Positions 5,622 through 60,200 of a DNA stretch of 64,000 bases are shown here, piece after piece; position 1 is the first letter of the stretch; each line of letters opens with the position of its first letter. The notes below the pieces were generated by a model. The model saw only the letters and a program-made list of their open reading frames with translations. It was not told the DNA's origin and did not search any database. The DNA is taken from positions 1-64,000 of the forward strand of contig SVIJ01000002.1 of assembly GCA_015069565.1 (NCBI GenBank). The letters run 5' to 3'. The position numbers and the translations under genes are program-made. This DNA comes from Clostridiales bacterium (GTDB lineage Bacteria > Bacillota > Clostridia > Christensenellales > Borkfalkiaceae).

Positions 5622-5757
5622 GATGTGGCAGGGCGTGGGGCTTGCTCTCGCCGAAGGTGGGGGAATAGTTGTCCTGACGGACAAGCGAGATTACGCCTGC
5701 GGCGTAGCGATATTTGCCCAAATGGGGAACGGTAGCTTTAATGATTATAGGTGCGTT

Positions 5758-7472: not shown

Positions 7473-7688
7473 AGTGAATTGAAAACCGTCGGTTTTCGTG
7501 AATTGAAACTGCGGTTTCGTGAATTCTCGCTGACGCTCCGTGAATTGTTTGCCTATGGCAAACGTTGCGGAAAAATTTATAATAATTCGATAACGCAAGG
7601 CAACGCCTTGCAATTCACGACGGCAAAGCCGTCAATTCACGCGTTTGTAAAACGCAATTCACGATTGCATATGGCAAGCAATTCACTT
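7473..7688. repeat. Family 1 hairpin-array repeat, copy A (full)
   Basis: A composite element: hairpins GAAAACC-GTC-GGTTTTC, GAAAC-TGCG-GTTTC and GTTTGCC-TAT-GGCAAAC separated by GTGAATT, a central part with GCAAGGC-AAC-GCCTTGC, then GACGGC-AAA-GCCGTC, GCGTTT-GTA-AAACGC and an imperfect GATTGC hairpin separated by AATTCAC. With the repeat at 7703 it fills most of the 380-bp gap between the minE-like gene and ktrA. Confidence 0.92.
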
Positions 7689-12292: not shown

Positions 12293-12325
12293 AAAAAGCA
12301 AGCCGTTTGGCTTGCTTTCTTTTAT
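12293..12325. terminator. Terminator after the small Xre gene
   Basis: AAAGCAAGCC-GTTT-GGCTTGCTTT with a T-rich tail. Nearly the same sequence as the terminator at 11603. It reaches into the end of the convergent RAYT gene. Confidence 0.8.
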
Positions 12326-12849
12326 TCTTCGGGGGAGTAAAAACAGTCCAGTTCCCAACGCAAAGGATTTTCCGCAACGTATTTTGCAATGTTTTCATAA
12401 TCGCTTGCGTTGCGAATGATATGGTCGTGGTAGCCCCGTTGCCATACGTGCGCTACTCCAAATTTTTGGCGGATTTGTTTTGACGCATTCATTTTCACAT
12501 AACCGATTGCTTTGGATATTTTAGAGCGCGTTTGCTCCCGTAGGGGCGATTCACGAATCGCCCGCGCATCTTCCGTTTCGGATATTATTAAAATAATGTG
12601 AATATGGTTGGGCATGATAACGTATCCGTCTACGGATAATGAAAAACGCGTAGATAGCTGTTCAATATAATATTGAACGATTTTTCCGTATTCGGTCAAC
12701 TCCGTTTCGGGCGATTCGTGAATCGCCCCTACGATGCGACTGAGCGTCTTTTGCTTTTGATGAGTGCAGACGGTGATAAAATACGCGCCTGGGGTGCTGT
12801 AATCATAATCTTGTAAGCGTAAACGCTTGCGTTTTAATAATTCTTTCAT
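12322..12849 (-). CDS. REP-associated tyrosine transposase (RAYT)
   Basis: A single-copy Y1-type HUH enzyme of the IS200-like/TnpA_REP group, which cuts and joins single-stranded DNA at REP hairpins. The 175-aa protein contains the family start KRKRLRLQDYDYSTPGAYFITVC, the HUH motif in MPNHIHIILI, the late GVAHVWQRGYHDHIIRN with the expected catalytic region, and YVAENPLRW. The track starts at 12921 inside trmO; ATG 12849, 8 bp after the trmO stop, is preferred. Two GTAG-headed REP-like hairpins lie inside the reading frame, encoding GAIHESPE and RAIRESPL in two predicted loops. TnpA_REP proteins are thought to be domesticated, non-self-mobile enzymes. Confidence 0.88.
   Translation of the reverse strand: MKELLKRKRLRLQDYDYSTPGAYFITVCTHQKQKTLSRIVGAIHESPETELTEYGKIVQYYIEQLSTRFSLSVDGYVIMPNHIHIILIISETEDARAIRESPLREQTRSKISKAIGYVKMNASKQIRQKFGVAHVWQRGYHDHIIRNASDYENIAKYVAENPLRWELDCFYSPEE
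12540..12563 (+). repeat. GTAG-headed REP-like hairpin inside RAYT (REP1)
   Basis: GTAG, then GGGCGATTC-AC-GAATCGCCC, a perfect 9-bp stem. Orientation is plus, so its head points to the 3' end of RAYT. Confidence 0.85.
12709..12732 (-). repeat. GTAG-headed REP-like hairpin inside RAYT (REP2)
   Basis: Exact inverse of REP1: GGGCGATTC-GT-GAATCGCCC followed by CTAC. The two elements are 145 bp apart with heads facing outward. Confidence 0.85.
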
Positions 12850-12856
12850 ATTCGTT

Positions 12857-13531
12857 TTATTCGACGGCGACGACGGTGAGCGTATCCCCGACAACGCGGA
12901 ATTTGACGTTTTGCGCGCCAAATGCCATGCCGTATATACGCTCTGGCTCGTCTTGGTAGGACGGGCGGGGGTCTTCCGCCAAACAATCTATCAGCCCTGC
13001 CAGCTTTTCGGCAGGGATTTTTTCTTTCGCGCCGTCTAAAAATTCAACGCTGAGCCGCTTATTTGCAACGCCGTCCGCATAGCCGCCAACCGCGCCTATA
13101 ATGCAATCCGCGTGGGGCAGGTATGGCTTGACGTCCAAAATCGGCGTTCCGCTGAGCAAATCCGCGCCCCCGACAAGCAGGCTGATCCCCTGCTCCGTTT
13201 TCTCAACCTTCAAGAGCTTGACAACGCTCAATCCGATGCCGTTCGGGCGGAAGGGGGAACGGCTTGCAAACACCCCTACGCGCGTGTTTCCGCCCAGCCT
13301 TGGCGGACGGACAGTGGCATGAAACTCCGTCGTTTTTGCCGCCGAAAAATCAAACAGCAGCCAAAGATGGGAAAAGCCGTCGATGGCTTTGAATGCGTCT
13401 TCCGTTTGATAGGGCGGATAGAAATGAATACGGCTTATTACCCCGTCCGCTTTGCCGCTCTGACGGGGAATGCCAAACTTTTCCGTGAAATCGTTTTCGA
13501 TATAGCCGATGGCTGATACTGTCTTTTCCAT
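12857..13531 (-). CDS. trmO: tRNA (N6-threonylcarbamoyladenosine37-N6)-methyltransferase TrmO
   Basis: TrmO/TsaA-family proteins methylate t6A at tRNA position 37 using SAM. The 224-residue protein has the family signatures IGYIENDF, GIPRQSG, FSHLWLLFDF and RSPFRPNGIGLSVVKLL, then DVKPYLPHAD (catalytic region) and a C-terminal extension ending VVAVE. The track starts at 13600, upstream of the promoter; ATG 13531 coincides with the predicted +1, so the mRNA is predicted leaderless. The substrate t6A needs TsaD, which is also in this window (58974). RAYT follows after 7 bp and may be co-transcribed. Confidence 0.9.
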   Translation of the reverse strand: MEKTVSAIGYIENDFTEKFGIPRQSGKADGVISRIHFYPPYQTEDAFKAIDGFSHLWLLFDFSAAKTTEFHATVRPPRLGGNTRVGVFASRSPFRPNGIGLSVVKLLKVEKTEQGISLLVGGADLLSGTPILDVKPYLPHADCIIGAVGGYADGVANKRLSVEFLDGAKEKIPAEKLAGLIDCLAEDPRPSYQDEPERIYGMAFGAQNVKFRVVGDTLTVVAVE

Positions 13532-30154: not shown

Positions 30155-30218
30155 GAGTGAATGGAACGCTGTGCGTTTGCAAAACGCAATTCACGATTGC
30201 CGTAGGCAATCAATTCAC
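30155..30218. repeat. Family 1 hairpin-array repeat, copy B (short)
   Basis: AGTGAATGGAACGC, then GCGTTT-GC-AAAACGC, AATTCAC, GATTGCC-GTA-GGCAATC and ATTCAC. It consists of the two ends of the element with the middle missing. Confidence 0.85.
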
Positions 30219-30225
30219 ATATAAA

Positions 30226-30258
30226 AAAGGAAGGTCCAAAGACCTTCCTTTTTTGTTT
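30226..30258. terminator. Bidirectional terminator, flavoprotein / YwaF-like gene
   Basis: AAAAAAGGAAGGTC / GACCTTCCTTTTTT stem with a CAAA loop. A near-identical copy is at 31686-31718. Confidence 0.9.
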
Positions 30259-30267
30259 TACTTTCGC

Positions 30268-31329
30268 TTATTGTCTGATGGTGAACTGATAAATCTTTTC
30301 CATCAAGCCGTCGGGAATTTCATCCCGCAGGCTGCCGAGCTTGACGAAGATTTGACGGAAGAACAGCTTGTTCTCACCGCCGATTTCGTATTCGGGGAGC
30401 TGAACGTCTAAATCCTTAGAGAGTAGCTGCAAGAACTGTTCTTTTTCTTGCTCGGAAAGAGTGGAAAGAAAGGCGTCTTCTTTGCCTTCGTCTTTCGTTG
30501 CGTTGTCTTCCGCTTCTGCGACGGCAACCGCCGCTACGGGCGTGCAGGTAGGCGCATCTTCCGCCTTTGCCGTTCTTTTCTTCTTGCCTGCAATCAAGCC
30601 GTAAATCGCGTAGAAGGCGAGTATATAGACGAAGAACAAGCCTACGACGATCAAGGGATAGAACACGGGATGACCGTTTACGAGATTGAAGAAAATGTCG
30701 TAAGGCGTGCCGTCGCCGCGCATCAGGAACATATAGTTATAATCCAGCGTGACGTTTGCAACGTACGCCAAGACGCAAAAGCTCGTCAAAATGCCCAAGC
30801 AAATAAGAATATTTCCCTTCTTCATGCTTGCCATACCCGAGAAAAGAATGTACAGGGATGCAAAGCCCGAGATGGAGTGGGTGATGCCCGAAACGATATT
30901 CGGCCACGAAAGAACGGGATAAGCGCTGTAATTTTGCGCCGCGCCGTAAGTTCCCATCACCGCGCCCAAAATCCCGAAAATGAGCACGAAATCTAAGGAT
31001 GCGTTTTTCAGCTTTCCTTTGGAGAATGCCGCAAGGGGAATGGCAATCAGTTGGATACTGCACAGGAACAAGGGGAGCATTCTACGCAAGGGCTCAATCG
31101 AGCCTTCCAAGCTGCATCCGATGATGATTTTTGCCAGCTCAAAGCCGTCGATGAGAATCGCCGCCCAAATCATCACGCGGTTTTTTGCCTTGTATTCTTG
31201 GTTTTTGTACCGTTTTCCAAGGAAGATTGCAGCCAAAACCATAATCACCATCAGGGTGGTGACAAACGTCAAATGTTGCCAGGAGTACGCGCCCTGCGCT
31301 TCGCCTGAGCCGCTTAAAAACTCTTTCAT
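30268..31329 (-). CDS. YwaF-like multi-pass membrane protein with conserved C-terminal tail domain
   Basis: The 353-residue protein starts YSWQHLTFVTTLMVIMV and has about seven hydrophobic segments over residues 15-255, including WPNIVSGITHSISGFASLYILF, like the TIGR02206/YwaF membrane family of unknown function. After a charged linker comes a tail of about 80 residues (FLSTLSEQEKEQFLQLL ... PEYEIGGENKLFFRQIFV ... IPDGLMEKIYQFTIRQ), which is also the end of the neighbouring membrane protein. ATG 31329 is chosen; the track's extra residues cover promoter and repeat. The tail probably faces the cytoplasm. Confidence 0.75.
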   Translation of the reverse strand: MKEFLSGSGEAQGAYSWQHLTFVTTLMVIMVLAAIFLGKRYKNQEYKAKNRVMIWAAILIDGFELAKIIIGCSLEGSIEPLRRMLPLFLCSIQLIAIPLAAFSKGKLKNASLDFVLIFGILGAVMGTYGAAQNYSAYPVLSWPNIVSGITHSISGFASLYILFSGMASMKKGNILICLGILTSFCVLAYVANVTLDYNYMFLMRGDGTPYDIFFNLVNGHPVFYPLIVVGLFFVYILAFYAIYGLIAGKKKRTAKAEDAPTCTPVAAVAVAEAEDNATKDEGKEDAFLSTLSEQEKEQFLQLLSKDLDVQLPEYEIGGENKLFFRQIFVKLGSLRDEIPDGLMEKIYQFTIRQ

Positions 31330-31485: not shown

Positions 31486-31540
31486 GTGAACGATAGTTGT
31501 CCTTACGGACAAGCGCGATTACGCTTATGGCGTAGCGATA

Positions 31541-31682
31541 TGTTTGCTGTTGGCAAACGTTGTGGGGGAATTTATAATAATTCCATAACGCAAGGCAACG
31601 CCTTGCAATGCACGACGGCACAGCCGTCAATTCACGCGTTTGTAAAACGCAATTCACGATTGCCTACGGCAATCCATTCACA
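31541..31682. repeat. Family 1 hairpin-array repeat, copy C
   Basis: Contains GTTTGC-TGTT-GGCAAAC, a central GGAATT-TATAAT-AATTCC, GCAAGGC-AAC-GCCTTGC, GACGGC-ACA-GCCGTC, GCGTTT-GTA-AAACGC and GATTGCC-TAC-GGCAATC, the last ones separated by AATTCAC (once ATGCAC). With the REP and the YwaF promoter it fills the 400-bp gap. Confidence 0.9.
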
Positions 31683-31685
31683 TAT

Positions 31686-31718
31686 AAAAAAGGAAGGTCC
31701 GAAGACCTTCCTTTTTTG
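31686..31718. terminator. Terminator of the second tail-domain membrane protein gene
   Basis: Same AAAAAAGGAAGGTC / GACCTTCCTTTTTT hairpin as at 30226, with a CGAA loop instead. Confidence 0.88.
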
Positions 31719-31730
31719 TTTTACTTTCGC

Positions 31731-33119
31731 TTATTGTCTGATGGTGAACTGATAAATCTTTTCCATCAAGCCGTCGGGGATTCTTGCGCGCAAGCTACCG
31801 AGATTTACGAAAATCTTACGGAAGAATACCTTGTTGTCGCCGCCGATCTTGTATTCGGGGATTTCAGGCAGCTTGTTTTCCGAGCGGAGCAAGAAGATTT
31901 GCGTAAACTGCGTTCTTTCTTCTGCCGTAAGGGTTGCGATGAACGCGTCGAATTCGCTGCCGTAAGCGTCGCTGTCTACGGGAGCTTCTTCTGCTACGGG
32001 TTCTTCTGCAACAGCTTCTTCTACGGGAGCTTCTTCAACGACTTCTTCCACAGGCGCTTCTTCAACGACTTCTTCTACGGGAGCTTCTTCCACAGCTTCC
32101 GCTTCAGCCGCTTTCTTTGCTTTCTTCGCCTTCTTACGTCTTACGCTGACGATCGTGGATTCCAAAATGAGCATCAAAAGTGCAGCGCCAGCCGCGATGA
32201 TGCCGTAGATAAGGAAACCTGCAAGCGCTTCCACAAGGAAGGAAAGCACGATGATGCCTGCGCCAAGCAGGAGCATGATAACGCAACGGATAACGTCCGC
32301 GCCGTATACTTTCTTTGCGGAGATGCCAGCGAATGCGAGCATAACGAACAGAGCATAAGCGCAAACCACGCCAAGCGCAATCCACTTATAGAGAGCGTTT
32401 TCAGCGAACAAGCCTTGAACTGCCGTGTTTTCTACGGAAATAGCGTAGATAACGACGCCTGCGGATGCAACCGTAAGCAAGAAGATAAGCAAGCCTACGA
32501 AAGCACGAGCGCCCGACTTGATTGCGGACATGATTACGTAAAGCACCAAGGTGAACGCCGCGATGCCAAGGATTACGTAGTCAAGCGTAGCCATGATGTC
32601 CTGACCGTAGTATGCGTAGGGCAAAAGCAAGGACAGCGCGTAGCCAGTGTAAACGCCGAATTCAACGTAGATGATGAATCTTGCGATAGAAGGAGCAGCC
32701 TTACCGCAGAAGAGTGCGATAATGGATGCAAGCAAGCAAACCACCATGGAAACGGGCACGAGATAGAGCATTACGCTTGCCGAAATACCCAGGATACTGG
32801 TGTTGGTGGTCATCAAAGGAACTACGCCAAACAGCTTGGAAACTGCATAGCCGTCTTCGGTGAACATCTTGATGAACATATCAAGGAGCTTATTGTTTTC
32901 AACAATAAAAGCGCCTTCCTTGTACGCCAAGGTCTTCATTTCCAAGAAATAGAACACTGCGATCGGCGCGATTGCAAGGAGCAAAGCGAGCAAACGATAG
33001 AAGATGTTCTTTTTCTTCTTGGGAGCTGCGGGAGCTTCGGAAACTTCGGGAGCGGCGATGAATTCAGTCAATTCTTCGTTGGTCGCTTCGAGTTCTGCAA
33101 CGGGAGTTTTGGTACTCAT
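31731..33119 (-). CDS. Multi-pass membrane protein with acidic repeats and the same C-terminal tail domain
   Basis: The 462-residue protein has a short cytoplasmic N-terminus, about eight hydrophobic segments over residues 38-330, a basic stretch (RRKKAKKAKK), a repetitive acidic linker (EEAPVEEVVEEAPVEE) and a C-terminal tail of about 80 residues nearly shared with the YwaF-like neighbour (PEYKIGGDNKVFFRKIFVNLGSLRARIPDG, then the same last 12 residues). The membrane part is not YwaF-like and is not recognised. ATG 33119 follows AAAAAGGAGAG. The nucleotide similarity of the two 3' ends continues into the terminators, indicating a recent 3'-end duplication or exchange. Confidence 0.7.
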   Translation of the reverse strand: MSTKTPVAELEATNEELTEFIAAPEVSEAPAAPKKKKNIFYRLLALLLAIAPIAVFYFLEMKTLAYKEGAFIVENNKLLDMFIKMFTEDGYAVSKLFGVVPLMTTNTSILGISASVMLYLVPVSMVVCLLASIIALFCGKAAPSIARFIIYVEFGVYTGYALSLLLPYAYYGQDIMATLDYVILGIAAFTLVLYVIMSAIKSGARAFVGLLIFLLTVASAGVVIYAISVENTAVQGLFAENALYKWIALGVVCAYALFVMLAFAGISAKKVYGADVIRCVIMLLLGAGIIVLSFLVEALAGFLIYGIIAAGAALLMLILESTIVSVRRKKAKKAKKAAEAEAVEEAPVEEVVEEAPVEEVVEEAPVEEAVAEEPVAEEAPVDSDAYGSEFDAFIATLTAEERTQFTQIFLLRSENKLPEIPEYKIGGDNKVFFRKIFVNLGSLRARIPDGLMEKIYQFTIRQ

Positions 33120-39241: not shown

Positions 39242-39429
39242 AGTGAATGGAACGCGTTGCGTTCGTGAATTGTCGTTGACGCGACGTGAATTGTTTGCCT
39301 GTGGCAAACGTTGCGGTAGAGTTTCAATGTTTCCATAACGCAAGGCAACGCCTTGCAATTCACGACGGCTGTGCCGTCAATTCACGCGTTTGAAAAACGC
39401 AATTCACGATTGCCTTGCAATCATTCACT
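39242..39429. repeat. Family 1 hairpin-array repeat, copy D (full)
   Basis: GTGAATGGAACGC..., GTCG-TTGACG-CGAC, GTTTGCC-TGT-GGCAAAC, centre, CAAGGC-AAC-GCCTTG, GACGGC-TGT-GCCGTC, GCGTTT-GAA-AAACGC and GATTGC-CTT-GCAATC. It lies inside the B12 operon between the lipoprotein and the S component, where it would be transcribed and could fold. Confidence 0.93.
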
Positions 39430-39459
39430 TTCTATTACTTTCCCTATGGCAGGTATGCG

Positions 39460-42877: not shown

Positions 42878-43090
42878 AGTGAATGGAACGCGTTGCGTTC
42901 GTGAATTGAAATCTACGATTTCGTGAATTGTCGCTGGTGCGACGTGAATTGTTTGCCTATGGCAAACGTTGCGGAAGAATTGAAATTTTTCCATAACGCA
43001 AGGCAACGCCTTGCAATTCACGACGGCGTTGCCGTCAATTCACGCGTTTGCAAACGCAATTCACGATTGCTACAAGCAATCCATTCACTT
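42878..43090. repeat. Family 1 hairpin-array repeat, copy E (most complete)
   Basis: GTGAATGGAACGCGTTGCGT, GAAATC-TAC-GATTTC, GTCGC-TGGT-GCGAC, GTTTGCC-TAT-GGCAAAC, centre, CAAGGC-AAC-GCCTTG, GACGGC-GTT-GCCGTC, GCGTTT-GC-AAACGC and GATTGCT-ACA-AGCAATC, with GTGAATT joints on the left and AATTCAC joints on the right. It fills most of the 550-bp gap before ileS. Confidence 0.95.
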
Positions 43091-60050: not shown

Positions 60051-60146
60051 AGTGAATTGATTTGCCTTGCAAATCGTGAATTGCCGCACAAGCGGCGTGA
60101 ATTGTTTTCCTTTGGAAAACGTGAATTGTAAGGCAACGCCTTACGT
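60051..60146. repeat. Family 1 hairpin-array repeat, copy F (left half only)
   Basis: Four perfect hairpins joined by GTGAATT: GATTTGC-CTT-GCAAATC, GCCGC-ACAA-GCGGC, GTTTTCC-TTT-GGAAAAC and GTAAGGC-AAC-GCCTTAC. No AATTCAC half is present. Confidence 0.93.
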
Positions 60147-60200
60147 TATGGAAAGGGGCAGTAATTGCATACCTGCCCCCTTCATTTTCATGTTTTGCTC

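Follow-up and report, generated by a model that had tools for sequence, protein, structure and literature searches.

What recurs in the window, that is, in the whole 64-kb stretch of DNA analysed here, is probably an interspersed, mobile-looking DNA element without genes, which functions as a single DNA strand folded into successive hairpins. Many copies occur between genes in chromosomes of gut bacteria. Six copies or remnants of it (A to F) lie in the window, together with one remnant that has another linker (Table 1).

Architecture of the Element

Full copies measure about 212 bp and consist of two inverted arms with four hairpins each, in the order of GTGAATT-hairpin four times, CGTTRYGG, an AT-rich middle, CCRYAACG, and hairpin-AATTCAC four times. 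Every stem begins exactly at the linker. Stems are mostly 3 to 8 bp long and linkers are spaced by 16-26 nt, a spacing that follows stem length while the stems remain flush; binding sites phased on the duplex, another candidate, are ruled out by this spacing. Arms mostly have 3 to 5 units and at most about 9. Besides single arms, there are truncated copies and chimeras in which one arm has another linker type. In many copies, the two inverted arms lie about a common centre, and the 3′ end of the folding strand points outward at both ends. The sequence of a stem can be exchanged between units; that of the linker cannot. Terminal inverted repeats, (A)GTGAATT...AATTCAC(T), are present, and no target site duplication was found at the element ends or in an offset scan of 42 elements; the survey of ends covered 49 elements, some with approximate ends, and seven of them, some doubtful, came from the wider contig scan. 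The centre of some copies holds other material, for instance an intrinsic terminator or an additional repeat (L042:1450-1860, L035:1375-1620, and L048:1460-1760).

Table 1. Copies and remnants of the hairpin-array element in the 64-kb window
Feature	Positions	Strand	Description
Copy A	7474-7686		Full, two-armed; four hairpins, centre CGTTGCGG...ATAACG at about 7563-7595 (centre match 7563-7609), four hairpins
Copy B	30157-30218		Remnant of a deletion that joined a piece of the first left module to the final two modules of the right arm; module at 30188-30218
Copy C	31493-31681		Chimera; GCGATAT-type left arm, centre, AATTCAC right arm
Copy D	39243-39431		Two-armed, one left hairpin fewer
Copy E	42879-43088		Full, two-armed; outer linkers GTGAATG and CCATTCAC
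Copy F	60052-60165	-	Single arm, AATTCAC strand on minus, end at CCATAACG
Remnant arm, second linker type (GCGATAT / ATATCGC)	5665-5713		Remnant

Conservation of Linker and Stems

How strictly are the two parts of a module kept? The linker GTGAATT is exact in 278 of 323 modules, found by a scan that already demanded near matches to it, and stems are perfect in 265 of the 294 modules with at most one mismatch, to which the counting of mismatches was confined. In the window, the CGTGAATT linker has 23 matches where 4.1 are expected, a number reached by none of 100 shuffles, and the own genome of the window gives 141 heptamer-gap-heptamer matches (69 + 72), with 0 in the reversed control. It is to be noted that modules are paralogous and copies are related, so that these counts overstate independence.

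An earlier note on this DNA had described base changes that keep the pairing of the last hairpin, and the variants which it quoted are all present on direct reading: GATTGCC-GTA-GGCAATC in copy B (30195-30211), GATTGCC-TAC-GGCAATC in copy C, and GATTGCT-ACA-AGCAATC in copy E. The loops that it gave for the GACGGC/GCCGTC module are also there, namely AAA in copy A, ACA in C, TGT in D, and GTT in E. Copies B and C are not independent. The right part of copy C is duplicated together with the region of copy B, in a local duplication of 226 bp that is 89% identical (30173-30398 / 31636-31861), and the two hairpins are exact reverse complements (GTA versus TAC), so that their difference resembles a flipped hairpin and not separate mutations. 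Taken by itself, this pair therefore says little for compensation mutation by mutation. Besides the hairpin remnant, the duplication takes in a terminator as well as the 3′ end of a TMEM164-like gene region. Among GACGGC stems, a loop and its reverse complement are both seen (ATA/TAT, AAA/TTT, and ACA/TGT), as if whole hairpins flip.

Covariation was counted over eight hairpin stems in an alignment of 14 copies, complete or almost so, of the window's AATTCAC family from its own genome. There, 96.4% of the cells are paired, and 7 pairs and 15 cells are changed on both sides, where shuffles give 2.4 pairs and 3.1 cells and reach either real value in 0 of 500 cases; slid structures yield 0-3 pairs in the same test. 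The compensatory change proposed for the stems is thereby borne out, and the alignment of genomic copies, suggested as a check on it, indeed exceeds shuffles in covariation, although the majority of stem pairs in this single family never vary. Helix 3 is only 75.7% paired, several copies having a non-Watson-Crick tandem G.A variant. On the strand bearing AATTCAY, ATATCRC or ACTTCAC (the TCRC strand, on which modules are read here), this third hairpin is GGAGC...GCGA, and because of the tandem G.A mismatches it is only seemingly broken. Selection on structure, as the earlier note had put it, agrees with the covariation of the stems, but its addition that selection does not act on sequence has to be given up, since the 7-nt linker is the most conserved part of all.

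Do the linkers of the left arm also pair with those of the right arm, in a fishbone? Such pairing shows 1 covarying cell, a value reached by 100 of 500 shuffles, and no compensated left-right pair was found among 120, with 13 left and 11 right variants and none matched. In this count, two linker mismatches were allowed and the outer right linker of copy E was placed wrongly; the outer linkers of that copy, GTGAATG with CCATTCAC, are by eye a matching pair. Chimeric copies with different linkers in their two arms exist as well. From the null result in covariation and the direct count, left-right linker pairing is rejected as a selected structure.

Folding as DNA or as RNA

The earlier note left it open whether the selected structure forms in DNA or in RNA, and counts of wobble pairs, loops and tandem mismatches favour DNA. 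Pooled over four sets, and in modules with at most one mismatch, pairs on the TCRC strand are 2048 Watson-Crick, 19 G.T, 7 A.C and 19 other. G.T pairs are therefore about 1% in the stems of the element, against 8% in tRNAs of the same loci (32 G.T of 393 pairs in 18 tRNAs, whose output held only Watson-Crick and G.T pairs), and G.T exceeds A.C only weakly (19:7, p 0.029).

The loops had been called free. On the AATTCAC-type strand, most of them are triloops of the form purine-N-A or GNNA tetraloops: the 160 distinct triloops on the TCRC strand comprise 58 GNA, 48 ANA, 19 TNT, 9 TNC and 26 others, and the 68 tetraloops comprise 33 GNNA and no TNNC, GNYA (19) being as common as GNRA (14). When arms of other families are read on the opposite strand, their 35 triloops are TNC in 21 cases, TNT in 9, GNA in 1, ANA in 1, and others in 3. 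This polarity is looser in the largest set, that of AATTCAC in the own genus (50 GNA/ANA versus 23 TNC/TNT). The GNA:ANG ratio is 78:7 in elements versus 47:28 in control hairpins outside them (Fisher p 1.4e-5; p 0.004 on distinct stem-loop combinations), and pairing across the loop is avoided (7 of 190). Tandem mismatches number 13 in 365 distinct modules; 10 of them are G.A followed by A.G on the TCRC strand, spanning five of nine genome groups, and none is C.T/T.C. In GGC modules, the loop is TTC/GAA in 8 of 11, and the 3-bp module GGC-GAA-GCC fits stable GNA-loop DNA hairpins. GCGAAGC is a very stable DNA minihairpin. In RNA, too, loops of the GNRA kind and tandem G.A pairs are stable. Folding energy with DNA parameters favours the TCRC strand in all four sets, significantly in two (p 0.00077 and 0.012; the others 0.23 and 0.42). 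In DNA, Streptomyces telomeres provide known cases of GNA triloops with sheared G.A (PMC7205883 and PMC4513846). The stems thus look like DNA folding on the heptamer strand.

An RNA element, whose arms would work in transcripts as 3′-UTR structures, for example as mRNA stabilisers or terminators, and whose covariation would come from RNA folding, is in our view unlikely. It would explain the covarying stems, and it suits copies that are intergenic and, by crude ORF calls, frequently begin 0-10 nt after a stop codon; REPs, too, are described as often transcribed and as lying mainly downstream of genes (PMC3733652). Many copies are probably transcribed, being just behind stop codons in operons, and starts at such a place may reflect no more than harm from copies elsewhere. 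However, wobble pairs are far rarer than in the tRNAs, GNYA loops are no rarer than GNRA, and the arms are inverted within a copy, which puts the favoured loops on opposite strands. Single arms have no preferred direction relative to transcription (n = 25: co-directional 5 versus 4, convergent 7, divergent 7, other 2, as gene contexts counted from crude ORF calls), and copies inside dnaA-mnmG and leuA-ilvB argue against a strong terminator. Furthermore, a search of the window with Rfam 15 gave no family match on the hairpin-array copies, its sole match being a cobalamin riboswitch (RF00174, 38474-38671, 63.4 bits). It is the near absence of wobble pairs, the equal use of GNYA, the inverted arms and the lack of orientation to transcription that favour DNA.

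Could the palindromes have no function at all? Template switching at quasi-palindromes would then keep copying one stem arm onto the other, and the resulting double changes would mimic selection. One-sided intermediates are indeed rare, as the number of perfect stems tells, and the hairpin flipped between copies B and C is of the kind that this process would leave. Nevertheless, we regard it as very improbable as the whole explanation: it accounts neither for a fixed heptamer with stems that start exactly there, nor for the preference of GNA over ANG and the avoidance of pairing across the loop, nor for tandem G.A pairs on one strand.

Insertion Sites

One genome of the genus (G035) has copies in the dnaA-mnmG and leuA-ilvB gaps and where leuC meets ilvD, and the own genome of the window has them at clpX/ricT and glyS. 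At leuA, 28 of 30 loci were compared, two short ones being left out, and only G035 has the array. Its leuA-ilvB gap is 268 nt with the element, and the other 13 gaps measured (14 including G035) are 9-32 nt in ten cases and 106-157 nt in three. The near relative G022, whose LeuA is 90% identical to that of G035, reads TAAGGAGTAATCAGTTATG in this gap, and the dnaA-mnmG insertion of G035 is absent from it. Since copies sit in housekeeping operons in which the corresponding gaps of relatives are short, they appear to insert, and it is from comparison between species that we infer movement. The element also supplies natural insertion differences within essential operons.

Distribution and Linker Types

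The AATTCAC pattern occurs in 14 of 61 genomes, the own genome included. An order-wide sample has it in 21 of 396 genomes (14 among the 329 good ones) from several families, some of these positives having one match only, which may be chance. Arrays with AATTCA(C/T) in other families are built alike, their linkers being [AG]TGAATT and their stems small, and longer single arrays are found in other families of the order (L304:1220-1534 with 10 linkers and L299:1382-1619 with 7). Two further linker types are found in the genus. ATATCRC has a match in 51 of 57 genomes, many with just one or two, and such low counts are partly chance because the reversed control yields similar ones; it is strong in G022 (62), G017 (34), G013 (23), G065 (23), and G000 (22). 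ACTTCAC is found in 16 of the 57 genomes and is strong in G006 (68), G024 (59), G028 (58), and G074 (51). G035 has the AATTCAC type only, with 84 pairs. Most of these genomes come from uncultured bacteria and are incompletely assembled.

In the wider contig scan, in which at least 111 stretches matched, 47 of the 80 loci listed have at least one flush hairpin; the two of these 47 that have non-Clostridia names (L102 and L109) look like chance. Spread by viruses was also considered, and none of the 18 viral contigs that matched the linker pattern had a flush hairpin.

A Possible Mechanism

How might such an element work? The mechanism that we infer would begin when the locus turns single-stranded, for example at replication, so that the folding strand could form hairpins, to which GNA/GNNA loops and tandem G.A pairs would lend stability. 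Folding would then set the linkers at a constant spacing whatever the stem length, and a putative protein would bind, reading the foot of the hairpin plus the linker. Copies may spread via a single-stranded intermediate, which would leave no target duplication. A partner gene was not found when Y1_Tnp, RVT_1 and Y2_Tnp were looked for in the 57 genus genomes. As for reverse transcriptase, RVT_1 is found in 8 of them and not in G000, G035, G028 or G022, and this candidate was rejected. IS91-type Y2_Tnp was found in none of the 57, in a search whose controls failed as well.

The element is interspersed palindromic DNA, a known kind, and has a real chance of being a class of its own. It is quite possible, though we would not go so far as to call it probable, that it represents a new class of non-coding mobile DNA, in which the unit of selection is a single-stranded hairpin array: telomere-like, 3′-outward rows within chromosomes, whose stems can be swapped and whose heptamer code, of consensus A-N-W-T-C-R-C, has split into types. 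Each type would presumably have a single-strand-specific reader protein of its own, one that is not a known Y1 transposase. If this is true, it would be a natural case in which a folded DNA strand, and not RNA or duplex sequence, is the informational unit. Each genome would then offer many natural variants from which the rules of DNA hairpin recognition, as to loops, sheared G.A pairs and linker, could be read, and REP-like elements would be widened beyond the GTAG/RAYT system and linked in form to bacterial telomeres.

Relation to Known Elements

No description of this hairpin-array element was found in the open literature, which is not proof of absence. Like a MITE of a DDE transposon, the element has terminal inverted repeats, but it lacks the target site duplication. 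BOX-type repeats of streptococci are likewise modular, non-coding and interspersed, and to our knowledge they contain no hairpin array with a constant linker. The 3′ overhang of Streptomyces telomeres is closer in form: as described in PMC7205883 and PMC4513846, it has a row of palindromes on the 3′-outward strand, GNA loops with sheared G.A, and compensatory changes, all common to the element, in which several GNA-loop hairpins lie on the 3′-outward strand. The telomere protein Tap prefers hairpins of denatured telomere DNA (PMC4513846). Unlike the telomere, however, copies of the element are chromosome-internal, lie between genes and not at a DNA end, are many, and have conserved heptamer linkers. 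TAACTGA heptamer repeats are intergenic direct repeats of a heptamer, like the element, and the available text of PMC4679880 describes no hairpins between them.

The nearest mobile elements are REP/BIME/REPIN with RAYT, with which the element shares interspersed short palindromes in inverted pairs, a mostly intergenic position and, putatively here, recognition of single-strand hairpins (PMC3733652, PMC6006769, and PMC8049555). Its copies are intergenic inverted dimers of high copy number. Could it then simply belong to the REP/REPIN type, with a mobilising Y1 (RAYT/IS200-like) transposase that has been lost or is absent from the assemblies? The shared life style, as intergenic inverted palindromes without target duplication, and a RAYT-like gene in the window (12322-12921, minus strand) are in line with this, and still we judge it quite improbable. 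The element differs from a REPIN in its multi-hairpin arms on a fixed 7-nt linker and in its stems of any sequence, and its feet are GTGAATT/AATTCAC, ATATCRC or ACTTCAC instead of GTAG or GTGG. Nor is there a consistent Y1 gene: 21 of the 57 genomes of the genus have Y1_Tnp (PF01797), which went undetected in the array carriers G035, G028, G006, G008, G017, G020 and G024, which are incomplete assemblies (G035 is 93% complete). Moreover, the RAYT-like gene of the window has its own GTAG REPs. Two of these, in inverted orientation, lie within its reading frame (12539-12564 and 12708-12733), and in-frame insertions of REPs are reported for tnpAREP subclass 2.4 in PMC6006769.
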